From the NCBI GenBank assembly GCA_031315865.1, contig JALDRJ010000002.1, positions 1,214,001 to 1,278,000 of the forward strand: 64,000 nucleotides of DNA, read 5' to 3'. Below the pieces are notes generated by a model. The model worked only from the letters and a program-made list of their open reading frames with translations. It was not told where the DNA came from and made no database searches. The translations under genes and the position numbers were made by a program. Positions within the stretch are counted from its first letter, which is position 1. Every line of letters starts with the position of its first letter. Of this stretch, positions 49,407 to 54,952 are shown one piece after another. The DNA comes from Nitrospirales bacterium. GTDB lineage: Bacteria; Nitrospirota; Nitrospiria; Nitrospirales; UBA8639.

Positions 49407-49706
49407 CTATTGAGTGGACGACAAATGACGCGACGGATTCATACTCTTATGGAGAATCCGGACAATGAGGATGTGATGGTCTTCGACGGTATAAATAATT
49501 TGGTGGCTTTTGTGCTGATAGATCCGGACCGATGGAGTAAATTCAGATCGTTTGCGACAGATAAGAGGCGTTTGGGTCAAGAGTTCGAAGCAATGGTCTA
49601 ATTCATCGGCGTATGCTTCGGCTTGTGTTTCACCAAACGTGTAAAAGCCATATTCATAGATGTTCTGTGAGTCTAAATAGGCTTCTTGCGTAAGTTTATA
49701 CTCCAT
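49407..49706 (-). CDS. ParE/RelE-superfamily toxin
   Basis: A 99-residue protein from the ATG at 49706, which lies inside the antitoxin gene (11-base overlap). The sequence YKLTQEAYLDSQNIYEYGFY, then AEAYADELDHCFELLTQTP and the end DHHILIVRILHKSM, has the ParE pattern. ParE toxins poison DNA gyrase, whereas RelE relatives cleave mRNA; the sequence fits ParE better. It is paired with the ribbon-helix-helix antitoxin upstream. It is the first gene of the accessory patch. Confidence 0.82.
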   Translation of the reverse strand: MEYKLTQEAYLDSQNIYEYGFYTFGETQAEAYADELDHCFELLTQTPLICRKRSEFTPSVRIYQHKSHQIIYTVEDHHILIVRILHKSMNPSRHLSSTQ

Positions 49707-49953
49707 GCTTCGTGGCTTTGATCTTGGCACGAGCTTCTTTAATAGCGTCTTTAAAACTTTTGTCGCTCACACCGCTTTCAATGCCTTTAGTGATAGCAGC
49801 TTGCAGGGCTTTGATTTGATCCTGTTCGTTTTGGTCGCGCCGGATCAGATCACGGACATAGTCACTTGCGCTGCTATACTGCCCACTATTTTCAACTTGA
49901 GCTTCGACCCAGTCCTTCATAGGATCGGGAACGGAAATATTCATGGTGGCCAT
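49696..49953 (-). CDS. ParD-type ribbon-helix-helix antitoxin
   Basis: A protein of about 85 residues. MNISVPDPMKDWVEAQVENS and YSSASDYVRDLIRRDQNEQD are the ParD pattern: an N-terminal DNA-binding ribbon-helix-helix, with a C-terminal region that wraps the toxin. Three ATGs in a row (49959, 49956, 49953) follow AAGGGGA; the third has the best spacing, so I choose 49953. The pair is normally autoregulated by the antitoxin binding its own promoter, which should lie at about 49970-50100. Confidence 0.85.
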   Translation of the reverse strand: MATMNISVPDPMKDWVEAQVENSGQYSSASDYVRDLIRRDQNEQDQIKALQAAITKGIESGVSDKSFKDAIKEARAKIKATKHGV

Positions 49954-50103
49954 CATCATGTCCCCTTTCCCTTCCAGTATGACAGATAATGACAATTTTT
50001 GCCAATAATTATGAGTGCCAGTTATCATTATTGTTCTTCCAGATAATAGAACCTGATTCTGTTTTATTTGACAAGTTAGTAGTATTGAAATACAGTGTAG
50101 TGC

Positions 50104-50397
50104 ATGAGCAAATCATCGGTGTATAGTTGGCGTATCGATCCTGTGTTGAAGCAGGATCTTGAGCAGGCAGCAAGAACAGAGCAGACTAGTATTGCACAGC
50201 TTCTTGAACAGATTGTTCAAGACTGGCTTTACAAGAAGTCCTCACCAGACGACGAAGAAGTGCAACAGCGCCTCCATGAAGCGGCCTCTCAAACCTTCGG
50301 CGCATTCCGGAGTCGCGATTCAAAGGGTTCGGAGAAGGTACGAGAACGAGTTCGTGCGAAGTTAAGGCAAAAGCGTGCAACCCAAAGGCCTGATTGA
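50104..50397 (+). CDS. Ribbon-helix-helix-type antitoxin for PIN toxin
   Basis: A 97-residue basic protein whose N-terminal part (VYSWRIDPVLKQDLEQAART) looks like a CopG/Arc-type ribbon-helix-helix DNA-binding unit. The C-terminal half is helical and charged (EKVRERVRAKLRQKR). It overlaps the downstream PIN gene by 23 bases, the usual arrangement of VapBC-like pairs. I infer that it neutralises the PIN toxin and represses the pair. It is divergent from the ParDE pair, with about 150 bases between the two antitoxin starts. Confidence 0.72.
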   Translation: MSKSSVYSWRIDPVLKQDLEQAARTEQTSIAQLLEQIVQDWLYKKSSPDDEEVQQRLHEAASQTFGAFRSRDSKGSEKVRERVRAKLRQKRATQRPD

Positions 50398-50794
50398 TAC
50401 CGGGCCAATTGTTGCCCTTTTAGACCGTGGTGATCGTTGGCACAAGATATGTGTAGAGACTTTCTCGAGTCTGCCGTTACCCTTAGCGACGACATCCGCT
50501 GTTCTTGCGGAATTGTTCCATTTTCTCGATGACCATCCACAACGCATTGCTGCTGCCTGGCAAACATTAAGATCAGGCGCTATTACCGTTCTCCCAATCA
50601 CGGACCAAGACATGCCAGCACTTGAGCGACTGATGAAACAGTATGAGGATCGCCCCATGGATTTTGCAGATGCGACCTTAGTTCATCTTGCCAAGCGAGA
50701 ATCCCTCACAACGATATTCACCATTGATCATAATGATTTCGAAACGTATCGTATCAGCGGCAAGCAAAAGTTCTATATCGTTCCCTCTCGCTAA
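50375..50794 (+). CDS. PIN-domain ribonuclease toxin (VapC-like)
   Basis: A 139-residue PIN domain with the expected acidic residues: Asp8 in GLIDTGPIVALLDRGD, Glu46 in SAVLAELFHF, Asp96/Asp99 in DFADATLVHLA and Asp118 in FTIDHNDF. PIN toxins cleave RNA, often tRNA or rRNA. The gene overlaps its antitoxin by 23 bases. Its stop is only 5 bases before the start of repeat copy A. Confidence 0.85.
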   Translation: MQPKGLIDTGPIVALLDRGDRWHKICVETFSSLPLPLATTSAVLAELFHFLDDHPQRIAAAWQTLRSGAITVLPITDQDMPALERLMKQYEDRPMDFADATLVHLAKRESLTTIFTIDHNDFETYRISGKQKFYIVPSR

Positions 50795-51233: not shown

Positions 51234-52487
51234 TTATTCATCAAATGAATCATCTATAAAAAGTAACGTTAAAACTTCCCCATAATTGGGGAAACCCCAC
51301 GATTGTTCTGATAAACACGCCGTCGAATTCACTCTTCCATATTGCAACCAGCTTCTTGCAAGTACAGTTTGCATTTCCCGACTCAGATTCGCCCCATTAA
51401 AAAAATCAGTAGCCCAGGAATCTGGATCAAGTTTTTGGCCAGACTCCAACCGATACCCAAAATCCTCACTTTCTTTGGCCCATTTAATTTTATTATCTTT
51501 TGAAACTACTATTGCACATCTGTAAGGACAATATTGTATATACCGCAGTGCTGTGGCCGTTAGCGTTGTCTGAAAATCATCAGCGAGAGATTGAATATGG
51601 TTAAGACTAGGGGCAGTTTGAGCACATTGAGGCTTAAACATGTCTTCGGGCATCAATAATTCTGCGGCAAATTCATTGGCTTCAGTTTCTGGCGAAACAT
51701 TAAAAAATCCTAAAAGCTGGACATCTTTTTTTGAACAAATAAATGAGGAAGTTTTTTTGCCATGTAATTCAAAGTGGCCTAGCTCATGGCCAATCGTAAA
51801 TCGTTTTTTCCCTACTTCACGGGTATTTGTATTAACGGTAATAATTCCACAATTTCCTTTTCTTACAAGGCGTCCTTCACATCCTTCAAGAATGTCCTCG
51901 CGGACACAAACATTCTTGAGTCCTGCGATACCCTCAACATCGATTTCTTTAGGAGTGCGAATCCTGTACTCATGAATAATACTTCTGGCTCGCCTTGCAC
52001 CAGCACCTCTATCAACGTAAACCATTCCCTGGCTAGTCTCCTTTTCCTTTTCTTCCCTATTCAACTCAGAAACAAGCTCTAAATCTTTGAGCAGCGAATG
52101 TAAATCTTGCTCCGTGAGGTTTTCCAAATTTCGATATGCCGCTTGCAGGGTACCGCCAGGTGCTTCTGAAAGGCTCGACCAAGCAAGTTTTACTTTCTCT
52201 CGCAACTGGTCAAAACTAAGATTGTGCCTGGGGATTTCTCTAACATTTTGAAGTGCAGCTTTTTTATTTTCCCTTGCCTCTTCTAGCATACGTTGGGTCG
52301 CAAGTTGTCGTTGTTGTTCGATGAATTCCATCCCCCGAGCAATCAAGGCATCAGGATCATCACCCTCTTCTCTTATTGATTCCTTCACATCATCGAGGGA
52401 AAGAGTATCGTCCTCAGCAAGCATGTCATAGATATTGGCCAGCCAATCACTGTCGGTCTTGGCCTCATGACGCTTTTCATCACTCAT
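51234..52487 (-). CDS. ImmA/IrrE-family metallopeptidase
   Basis: A 417-residue protein from the ATG at 52487, preceded by GGGAGGTG. The N-terminal 150 residues are acidic and helical with no recognised domain. From about residue 155 an ImmA/IrrE zinc peptidase follows, with HELGHFELH at 234-242 and EANEFAAELLMPEDMF downstream. Family members cleave repressors (DdrO, ImmR) or anti-regulators to switch genes on after stress or in mobile elements. The start lies inside the sigma-like gene (8-base overlap), so the two are coupled and the sigma-like protein is the natural candidate partner or substrate. Confidence 0.82.
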   Translation of the reverse strand: MSDEKRHEAKTDSDWLANIYDMLAEDDTLSLDDVKESIREEGDDPDALIARGMEFIEQQRQLATQRMLEEARENKKAALQNVREIPRHNLSFDQLREKVKLAWSSLSEAPGGTLQAAYRNLENLTEQDLHSLLKDLELVSELNREEKEKETSQGMVYVDRGAGARRARSIIHEYRIRTPKEIDVEGIAGLKNVCVREDILEGCEGRLVRKGNCGIITVNTNTREVGKKRFTIGHELGHFELHGKKTSSFICSKKDVQLLGFFNVSPETEANEFAAELLMPEDMFKPQCAQTAPSLNHIQSLADDFQTTLTATALRYIQYCPYRCAIVVSKDNKIKWAKESEDFGYRLESGQKLDPDSWATDFFNGANLSREMQTVLARSWLQYGRVNSTACLSEQSWGFPNYGEVLTLLFIDDSFDE

Positions 52488-53169
52488 AGCCAACACCTCC
52501 CTTTAGTTCGCCGCGAACTTTTCCCAATAAACGTCGAAATCGTTTTTGTGCATTATTAACTTGTTTAACCGATAGCCCAGTTTTTTGGGCAATAAAGCGG
52601 GGCTCTTTTATTCCTTCCATAGTGCATTCTAAGATTAAATTAACCTCCGTATCCTCCTTTCCTAGATCCATTAAATTGTTCAATATTTTTTTTGCAGTCT
52701 CCTCTTTTTCTTCTCGTTCTCTTGCTTCCTCATTTTCAAGAGCAATTTCTTCAGGATTTTTGGTCCGAACCATGAGTTCAGTAGCGTGGTCATCCTCTGG
52801 TCTTGCAACTTGAACGATTTCTTCCAAGGGCCGATTTGATTCTTCTGGAATTATTTGAACACTAGTATTGTCCTTAGACCTAACCAGATTGCTCACCATG
52901 CTCTTAAGAACTGAATCCATTAAAAACTTTCCTAAATCTGGGTCTTTTTCGTGATCCCAAACCCGTTCACCGCTGAAAAGTTTTTTAATAGCCTCTTGCA
53001 CTAAATCCTCTGCTTTCATTCCTTGAGCGAAATCAGACTTGTTCCCACTTCTCCACTTCAAGGCCCCACCCTTCATTTGGACGTAGTATAGGAGCCGAGG
53101 ATAAATCTCCTCCCAGTTGGCATCATCCAACATTCTCTTTGATTCGGGTGTCAGGGAATATCGTTCCAA
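52480..53169 (-). CDS. Sigma-factor-like DNA-binding protein
   Basis: A protein of about 229 residues. Residues about 52-98 (KAEDLVQEAIKKLFSGERVW, LGKFLMDSVLKSMVSNLVRS) resemble sigma-70 region 2 of ECF type. The C-terminal part (EPRFIAQKTGLSVKQVNNAQ, KRFRRLL) looks like the region 4 helix-turn-helix. A long acidic linker (about 120-165) joins them. The start is uncertain: TTG at 53169 is 14 nt from a GGGGGAGG, and ATG at 53133 has only a weak site. It is translationally coupled to the ImmA/IrrE gene, and the two could form a regulator-protease switch. Confidence 0.68.
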   Translation of the reverse strand: MERYSLTPESKRMLDDANWEEIYPRLLYYVQMKGGALKWRSGNKSDFAQGMKAEDLVQEAIKKLFSGERVWDHEKDPDLGKFLMDSVLKSMVSNLVRSKDNTSVQIIPEESNRPLEEIVQVARPEDDHATELMVRTKNPEEIALENEEAREREEKEETAKKILNNLMDLGKEDTEVNLILECTMEGIKEPRFIAQKTGLSVKQVNNAQKRFRRLLGKVRGELKGGVGYE

Positions 53170-53306
53170 TTAAAGCTTCATGCCTCCCCCTGGTGAAATA
53201 TTCTGCTGCCGGGATATGAAATTTTGCCATTTTCAGGTTCTTTTTTCATGTAAACGGCAAAAAATGGGAATTCGTCAGCATTATTAATTAGAAGGAGGTG
53301 ATGTAC

Positions 53307-53462
53307 GTGATCGATCAGAACATCTTTACAAACGAGACAAGAAAGGTTCTGTATTATGTGTTTCGCACTTGGCGAAAGCATCCAAAAACAGGAGAAGTGC
53401 TCTGGGCTAAGGATTACGGCCTTCGGGCTTGGAGAATCCCAATTTACGCCCCGGGCCGTTAA
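53307..53462 (+). CDS. Small protein of 51 residues
   Basis: A short frame with a textbook ribosome-binding site: AAGGAGGTGAT with AGGAGG 8 nt before the GTG at 53307. The in-frame ATG at 53301 is too close to it. The product is basic and aromatic-rich (RKVLYYVFRTWRKHPKTGEV, LWAKDYGLRAWRIPIYAPGR). I do not recognise a family. It starts 137 bases from the divergent sigma-like gene and is 36 bases before the DUF2188 gene, so it is probably the first gene of that transcript and may be regulated together with the sigma/ImmA pair. Confidence 0.65.
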   Translation: MIDQNIFTNETRKVLYYVFRTWRKHPKTGEVLWAKDYGLRAWRIPIYAPGR

Positions 53463-53498: not shown

Positions 53499-53738
53499 AT
53501 GGGGAAGAAAAGAGACATTCATGTAGTGCCACACAGTGACTTTGGGTGGGCTACCCGACGTGAGGGGTCTGCCAATGTATCATCACGTCACCGAACACAA
53601 GGAGCAGCGATAGATAAGGCTCGTGGTACTGCCAAAGAAGACAGAGTTGAAGTCGTAATCCATCGTCCGGATGGAAGAATTCGCGACAGCGATAGCTATG
53701 GGAACGATCCAAATCCACCAAAGGACCGCAAGCATTAA
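53499..53738 (+). CDS. DUF2188 protein
   Basis: A 79-residue protein with the DUF2188 pattern: DIHVVPHSDFGWATRREGSA, THRTQGAAIDKAR-like spacing and VEVVIHRPDGRIRDSDSYGN. Family members are small, often in accessory regions, and of unknown function; the repeating beta-helix pattern suggests a compact nucleic-acid-binding or adaptor fold, which is my inference. AAAGGAGAAAAAGG precedes the ATG. The stop codon lies within the loop of an intrinsic terminator, ending the short plus-strand unit. Confidence 0.8.
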   Translation: MGKKRDIHVVPHSDFGWATRREGSANVSSRHRTQGAAIDKARGTAKEDRVEVVIHRPDGRIRDSDSYGNDPNPPKDRKH

Positions 53739-54047: not shown

Positions 54048-54446
54048 CTACCCCTGCCATTCCAAAGCTAGCATTTGAAAAAGAAATCCCATAACCAAGA
54101 GGACGTAGGCTATTGGATGCGTAAGAGGCGGGATGTCCTCCAACACCTGGAAGTTTAGGTCATCCAGTTTTTCGCGTTCCTCCTGAAGAGAGTCAAGTTT
54201 CTTCCGAATCGAACCTGTCTCTTTTTCTTCACTGTATGCCTCGTAGCCGAGCCGTTCGTTTGTCCTGGCTACGGACTTAATTGCATCGGTGAGGTTTCGC
54301 TGCCACGATTTTAGCTCATTGGTTATATCAGCAAGCTTTTGAGTTCGCAGCGACTTTCTTGTGCGTTCCCTAATGTCGAATGTCAAAAGAAGCAGAGCGC
54401 CGCCTGTTGAAAGTGAAAGACCAAGTAAGGTTAATCCGTTATTCAT
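54048..54446 (-). CDS. Two-TM coiled-coil membrane protein
   Basis: A 132-residue protein whose ATG follows AGGAGG by 5 nt. Transmembrane helices lie at residues 5-22 (LTLLGLSLSTGGALLLL) and about 110-127 (HPIAYVLLVMGFLFQML). Between them is a charged, probably coiled-coil stretch of about 85 residues (EEKETGSIRKKLDSLQEERE). I do not recognise a family. Its terminator is not evident; the 59-residue gene converges on it. Its location inside the accessory patch gives no functional hint beyond membrane residence. Confidence 0.6.
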   Translation of the reverse strand: MNNGLTLLGLSLSTGGALLLLTFDIRERTRKSLRTQKLADITNELKSWQRNLTDAIKSVARTNERLGYEAYSEEKETGSIRKKLDSLQEEREKLDDLNFQVLEDIPPLTHPIAYVLLVMGFLFQMLALEWQG

Positions 54447-54650: not shown

Positions 54651-54952
54651 TTATTTAACTGCCTGCGTTAACGATGCAGTCACTGGATCATACTGAAATC
54701 CTGTAATCGTGCCATCCTTAATGCGCTCAACAGCCTCGTCGATCACAAAGATCGGCACGAGAAACCATTCGCGCGGCACAACGGGATTTCCAAAGCGATC
54801 CTTGATTTCAATATCAAGTCTTGCCGGATCAAAAATCCGATGAATGAGATGTTCGAGCTTATTACGATTGATGTTAGAAAGCTTGTACGTGGCAACAACC
54901 TCCACATCCGCCATCAGGAATGTGGGATCAAGTTTGGCATTGCCGGAAATAG
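54651..54952 (-). pseudogene. GIY-YIG/T5orf172-type nuclease, 3' remnant
   Basis: The frame ends at 54651 and reads upstream as far as about 54952. There the sequence turns into repeat copy B, whose terminus brings a TGA into frame. The remaining ~98 residues (NKLEHLIHRIFDPARLDIEI, KDRFGNPVVPREWFLVPIFV) resemble, from memory, the C-terminal part of GIY-YIG (Mug113/T5orf172-like) nuclease family proteins. The N-terminal catalytic half is missing. An internal ATG at 54914 leaves an 87-codon frame, but it has no ribosome-binding site. I read it as a gene broken by the element. Confidence 0.65.

Follow-up and report, generated by a model that had tools for sequence, protein, structure and literature searches.

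A putative sigma, anti-sigma and CapP cassette in a Nitrospirales genome and its relatives beside immune operons elsewhere

Genes at the locus

The window, by which we mean the whole 64,000-nucleotide stretch of Nitrospirales DNA that was analysed, carries a sigma-like gene followed by an ORF with a metallopeptidase domain at its C-terminal end. The pair had been picked out in a reading of the sequence alone, which described the two genes as overlapping by 8 bases. Both ORFs lie where that reading had put them, and the overlap is exactly 8 bases if the ATG at 52487 is used. The Shine-Dalgarno sequence GGAGGT lies directly 5' of this ATG, and a GTG at 52496 is a possible alternative start. The second ORF begins with a domain that we call mid and ends in a part of the CapP type (Table 1).

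Table 1. Features of the cassette and of its divergent side in the window (positions in the window; residues refer to the protein named)
Feature	Position	Strand	Remarks
ECF-like sigma protein ORF	52480..53169	-	229 aa, putative TTG start
Sigma regions of the 229-aa protein			region 2, residues ~49-100; region 4, residues ~161-216
Overlap of sigma stop and mid-CapP start	52480..52487	-	8 bases, ATGAGTGA
Peptidase ORF (fused mid-CapP)	ATG 52487 to end 51234	-	417 aa; C-terminal M78 (ImmA/IrrE) peptidase
mid domain	52026..52487	-	residues 1-154 of fused ORF; putative anti-sigma
midN and midC			residues ~11-75 and ~81-151 of fused ORF
Arg119 codon in mid tail (AYRN)	52131..52133	-	near-invariant; candidate cleavage/recognition site
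Internal ATG (Met155)	52023..52025	-	AAGGAG ~12 bases upstream; possible separate CapP start
CapP-type M78 metallopeptidase part	51234..52025	-	begins at Met155
Promoter-like site GGCAAAA-N13-CAGCA	53204..53228	-	directed at sigma gene
Mirrored copy GGCAAAA-N13-CAGCA	53256..53280	+	directed at divergent genes
53-aa ORF	53301..53462	+	strong Shine-Dalgarno; first gene of putative target operon
DUF2188 (YegP-like) gene	53499..53738	+	putative target

The sigma-like identity of the 229-aa protein, as first proposed, has weak backing in Pfam (Sigma70_r2, E 0.04). The profile built from its family places it firmly with the ECF-like sigma factors. This profile matches the ECF factor SigH in the PDB at E 4e-7, with both sigma regions covered. 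The NCBIfam model TIGR02937 matches at E 9e-9, and because its score of 35.1 bits is under the curated cut-off of 42.9 we call the protein 'ECF-like', a divergent relative. The AlphaFold model (pLDDT 84) is matched by Foldseek chiefly to sigma factors, and the sigma fold is thus found in the predicted structure. Regions 2 and 4 are both present in the one protein by profile and by predicted structure, and the region 2 positions D55, L56, E59 and A60 are kept. The protein presumably binds core RNA polymerase and recognises promoters. The acidic linker and long spacer pointed out earlier do exist in this protein, but they are not conserved across the family. The linker is variable and poorly occupied in the family alignment, with a mean top-residue frequency of 0.16 and no conserved site, and it is flexible in the AlphaFold model (pLDDT about 50). 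It looks like an ordinary ECF linker. A close relative of this sigma protein, with 50% identity in the alignment and truncated past region 2, lies in genome G133 (L138:7385-7825).

The ImmA/IrrE assignment is firm (Pfam M78, E 5e-15), and the family can be named more closely. The PADLOC capP profile matches residues 165-411 at E 6.8e-66, over profile positions 7-241 of 242, and the best PDB match of the family profile is the solved CapP 7t5t (E 2.9e-27). The motif HELGH stands at H234-H238 with E267 as the third ligand, and the catalytic H, E, H and E are invariant. By these matches the C-terminal part of the ORF is firmly assigned as a full-length CapP, the peptidase of the CapH+CapP immune controller. 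By analogy with its relatives, it would be activated by single-stranded DNA. The internal Met155 start may still yield free CapP. The same genome has another M78 peptidase gene in a 369-aa frame (G000:C2:1837789-1838127).

A conserved cassette with a modular middle protein

The sigma, mid and CapP genes form a conserved three-gene cassette present at over 50 loci spread across some ten phyla, and the pairing of sigma and peptidase is far beyond chance. When 84,980 species genomes were scanned with CapP of the cassette type, 80 loci were obtained; in nearly all of the best 44 of the 80, profiles find sigma and mid directly upstream of CapP, typically with sigma and mid overlapping by 4 bases. 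At the lower-ranked loci CapH is present, and sigma and mid are absent upstream. The co-occurrence across genomes that the sequence-only reading had anticipated is therefore found. In a tree of 94 CapP peptidases, the label for sigma plus mid changes twice, as against 29.4 times in shuffles. The hosts include Nitrospirota, Pseudomonadota, Acidobacteriota, Bacteroidota, Planctomycetota, Verrucomicrobiota, Chloroflexota, Myxococcota, Thermodesulfobacteriota and Sumerlaeota. Two loci, L095 and L107, were not relied on because their upstream sigma matches are weak. At L104, a Myxococcales contig, a mid-like ORF (L104:5303-6082) and the peptidase match lie on opposite strands, which could be a rearranged cassette or chance.

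Within Nitrospirota the cassette is sporadic: any mid match occurs in 20 of 396 genomes, and about ten of the matches are strong. A sigma ORF lies directly upstream of every strong match, and CapP follows within the sequence analysed around it in all of them but G245, where it lies about 1.5 kb further. The mid matches in G006 and G016 (L151, L152) were dropped; they fall in an unrelated 370-aa frame with neither sigma nor CapP. No description of a sigma factor with CapP was found in the literature searched, a set without bioRxiv and with only a minor part of the subscription journals.

HMM profiles of mid match the ORF of the window (L145). In Cereibacter, Fuscovulum and Pontibacter, in several Bradyrhizobium and roseobacter plasmids and in the Nitrospirota relatives, mid has an ORF of its own, placed between sigma and CapP; among the cassettes seen, it is fused to CapP in the window only. 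Modelled alone, without the CapP part, mid is all-helical in AlphaFold (pLDDT 84). Neither its fold nor its profile resembles a solved structure in the PDB, and for this reason mid resembles no known anti-sigma. An Arg in its tail is present in 97% of alignment rows. In hhalign the stretch around this Arg pairs with the tail of CapH (FR[D]..KL...D) in the right register, with a single-comparison P of 0.0095 and a probability of 4% at best, a likeness that is only suggestive.

The two halves of mid behave differently. midC accompanies CapP with a single exception, L048, where sigma and a mid with both domains (L048:5848-8354) lie beside a multiubiquitin/ThiF operon and CapP is not recognised downstream; this cassette is possibly decayed. 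midN adjoins sigma genes in combination with varied parts: CapP, a TM-TPR protein or an SNF2 helicase. In G133, two tandem midN copies with a TM helix and TPR follow a sigma relative without CapP (E 1.6e-14 in the ORF set), and this locus, L137:7769-10781, looks like a membrane-type version of the sigma/anti-sigma pair. In Rhizobium BT03, also without CapP, midN precedes an SNF2 helicase after a sigma relative; the sigma relative and the SNF2-like helicase with N-terminal midN span L047:5866-9602, which adjoins a gene with a dsDNA-nuclease domain and is possibly another defence system under sigma control. In Microvirga lotononidis (L043:5848-6665), sigma is followed by a short ORF with midN only, again without CapP. 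midN thus trails sigma genes that lack CapP, as an anti-sigma domain would. We consider that mid is probably both an anti-sigma, which would bind and inhibit the sigma protein, and the substrate of CapP. The 150-residue N-terminus of the peptidase had been proposed as its sensor or inhibitor part. The inhibitor role agrees in part with the occurrence of midN after sigma without CapP, and the sensor role does not hold, as this part is otherwise a separate protein.

Mirrored promoter-like sites and divergent neighbours

A mirrored -35/-10-like motif facing both ways is found in about a third of the cassettes, including that of the window. Its half-sites are bipartite, with promoter-like spacing, and each faces outward; an alphaproteobacterial example is TGTCCGA-N15/16-CGCAT. 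A generic search for mirrored blocks exceeded all of its own shuffles in only 17 of 57 regions, and pattern tests with controls were used instead. The strict pattern, derived from the plasmid cassettes, occurs in mirrored form in 8 of the 13 plasmid cassettes and in 5 of 44 others (0.01 in shuffles), or 13 of 57 upstream regions. The broad pattern, chosen after inspection of the data, occurs in 13 of these 44 others (0.48 in shuffles, at most 2) and in 21 of 57 regions in total. Controls gave none upstream of CapH (0/21), and inside 56 sigma genes there were 0 strict and 2 broad matches. The patterns were absent from all seven further Nitrospirota cassettes. If every sigma factor recognised sequences of its own, many cassettes could be expected to fall off-pattern, as they do. 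The exact pattern of the window has three matches in its genome, two of which make up the mirrored pair at 53204-53280. The third (L141) lies inside a gene and was taken as chance.

Most cassettes stand divergent to operons of the CBASS, ubiquitin-like (ThiF/Bub) or DUF2188 kind. The divergent CBASS genes encode SAVED, DncV/SMODS, patatin and HORMA proteins, the Bub-like operons encode ThiF/E1-E2, multiubiquitin and DUF6527 proteins, and other neighbours are short DUF2188/DUF3892 operons. At L044 the divergent gene encodes a cyclase that is Pycsar-like by eye. No CRISPR gene is among the identified neighbours. At L140:7035-13251, L055 and L057 the cassettes are divergent to Tn7-like transposition genes (TnsA-like and TniQ at L140, Mu/rve transposases at L055 and L057); the target there is not an obvious defence operon, and transposition may be under the same sigma-mid-CapP switch. 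In two Methylophilaceae, operons of DUF3892, DUF2188 and a 91-aa protein lie divergent to the cassette (L058:3974-4826, L059:2217-3173), possibly an uncharacterised small-protein defence operon.

The divergent side of the window has two small genes, the 53-aa ORF and DUF2188, whereas many relatives have clear immune operons. The 53-aa ORF has a few partial homologues; one is divergent beside another cassette (L087) and another lies beside an HTH + ImmA/IrrE pair (L166). The order-level relative G255 has, divergent to its cassette, genes for DUF2188, patatin, DncV and ThiF/E1-E2, followed by a short JAB-looking ORF; by gene content they are classed as a type II CBASS operon with DUF2188 as first gene. 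DUF2188 thus stands on the same side of the cassette in the window and in G255, and YegP homologues follow capKS in 57 of 443 cases (PMC13373217). Other small genes lie farther out in the window. Beyond DUF2188, on the minus strand, are a coiled-coil ORF (54048-54446) and, near it, a small ORF with a MUG113/T5orf172 (GIY-YIG-like) match (54651-54914). Elsewhere, a small ORF followed by a PIN-domain ORF (50104-50794) has the look of a VapBC-type toxin-antitoxin pair, and ParD/RelE-like ORFs lie at 49407-50028.

Proposed control and comparison with known systems

The proteolytic switch suggested from the sequence alone is the best reading of the locus, and its steps would run as follows. At rest, midN would bind the sigma protein and keep it inactive. 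The trigger for CapP would most likely be single-stranded DNA arising from damage or from phage replication, as it is for CapH+CapP, and the activated peptidase would cut the midC tail close to the invariant Arg. Sigma would be freed directly, or after further degradation of mid. With RNA polymerase it would then act on two divergent promoters, that of its own operon, giving positive feedback, and that of the adjacent defence operon, which in the window would be the 53-aa ORF and DUF2188. Because mid and CapP form one ORF in this genome, cleavage in cis is possible, and the internal start may also supply free CapP. We think it likely that the locus is such a local controller of immune operons, made of a sigma factor, an anti-sigma and CapP. 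Beyond what had been proposed before, the peptidase is placed as CapP, three genes are the normal make-up of the cassette, and immune operons usually lie divergent to it.

The substrate could also be the sigma protein itself, cut in its long acidic linker and thereby switched off or altered in activity, which was the earlier model. The overlap of the sigma and peptidase genes, the flexibility of the linker and the cutting of transcription factors by M78 peptidases agree with it. However, the linker is variable and poorly occupied across the family with no site conserved, while the mid family sits between sigma and CapP and bears the conserved Arg, and we regard this model as quite improbable. 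It is unlikely, too, that the sigma-like protein and mid together are a repressor on the mirrored site, with a sigma fold co-opted without RNA polymerase and derepression upon cleavage of mid. The known partner of CapP, CapH, is a repressor (PMC13373217), the mid tail resembles that of CapH, and the mirrored site could serve as an operator. Against this, the protein retains both sigma regions along with the kept region 2 residues, the half-sites point outward like promoters, and midN is also present in a sigma + TM-TPR arrangement of the kind that is typical of anti-sigmas.

Since the fold of mid has no known match, its role is drawn from context, and mid might instead be a chaperone or co-activator of sigma whose cleavage turns the system off. 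We give this very little credence, as cleavage turns genes on in the known CapP and IrrE/PprI pathways and anti-sigmas are the partners in the known immune trios of protease and sigma (PMC10028731, PMC11417357). Finally, the cassette in this genome could be a decayed remnant with a fused mid-CapP and a target operon reduced to two small genes. The fusion is unique among the cassettes seen, and in G255 a full CBASS operon stands behind DUF2188. A remnant is nevertheless doubtful to a high degree: all ORFs are intact with their catalytic residues, both promoter-like sites are kept, short operons with DUF2188 are met again next to other cassettes, and YegP genes lie beside CapKS.

A paper of June 2026 lists no more than three controllers that tie bacterial immune operons to DNA damage: CapW, CapH+CapP and CapK+CapS. 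Together they cover about half of the Bub operons that it surveyed (PMC13373217). On balance we favour the view that the cassette is a fourth class of Cap controller, in which CapP destroys an anti-sigma so that a dedicated sigma, under positive feedback, activates immune operons and perhaps also Tn7-like transposons; the anti-sigma and the peptidase of this genome would be one, possibly self-cleaving, protein. If so, the class could account for some of the remaining Bub operons, one ssDNA-activated peptidase family would be able to run a repressor or a sigma output, and the three-gene modules with their own promoters could be used for testing and engineering. In addition, mid emerges as a candidate for a new and modular anti-sigma domain, and DUF2188 (YegP) as a gene that recurs in immune operons.

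Like CapH+CapP, the cassette has a full-length peptidase of the same family and a small partner whose C-terminal tail contains an Arg, and in many relatives it lies divergent to immune operons of the same kinds. It differs in that the HTH repressor CapH is not directly upstream in the window; sigma and mid replace it, and the target genes would accordingly be activated with positive feedback, not derepressed. The IrrE/PprI-DdrO pair likewise has an ssDNA-activated M78 peptidase and a partner cut before an Arg, but there the partner is a repressor and the output is a global DNA-damage regulon, not a local immune operon. PprI cleaves DdrO between Leu and Arg (PMC4374696), and in a model an Arg of the DdrO loop makes contact with ssDNA (PMC10904395). 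Activation by ssDNA is known for CapP (PMC13373217) and for PprI (PMC10904395). CapK+CapS and CapW respond to ssDNA and adjoin Bub and CBASS genes, as well as YegP/DUF2188 genes in the case of CapKS (PMC13373217), but they consist of a kinase/STAS or a WYL repressor, without a peptidase or a sigma factor. The closest logic is that of CalpL-CalpT-CalpS, with a signal-activated protease, an anti-sigma and an ECF sigma in an immune context (PMC11417357), although its protease is a Lon with a SAVED sensor for cA4, its anti-sigma is another one, and it is linked to type III CRISPR. CASP (Csx29/Csx30/CASP-sigma) also has an anti-sigma with an N-terminal sigma-binding domain that is cut in its C-terminal domain, and sigma sites within its own locus (PMC10028731); it is a type III-E CRISPR system with an RNA-guided CHAT protease, and no relative of mid is among the solved chains. 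The window has an M78 peptidase, not Lon or CHAT. Because CapH and a CRISPR link are both absent, the cassette belongs to neither CapH+CapP nor Calp/CASP, and it combines the peptidase of the former with the sigma and putative anti-sigma logic of the latter.
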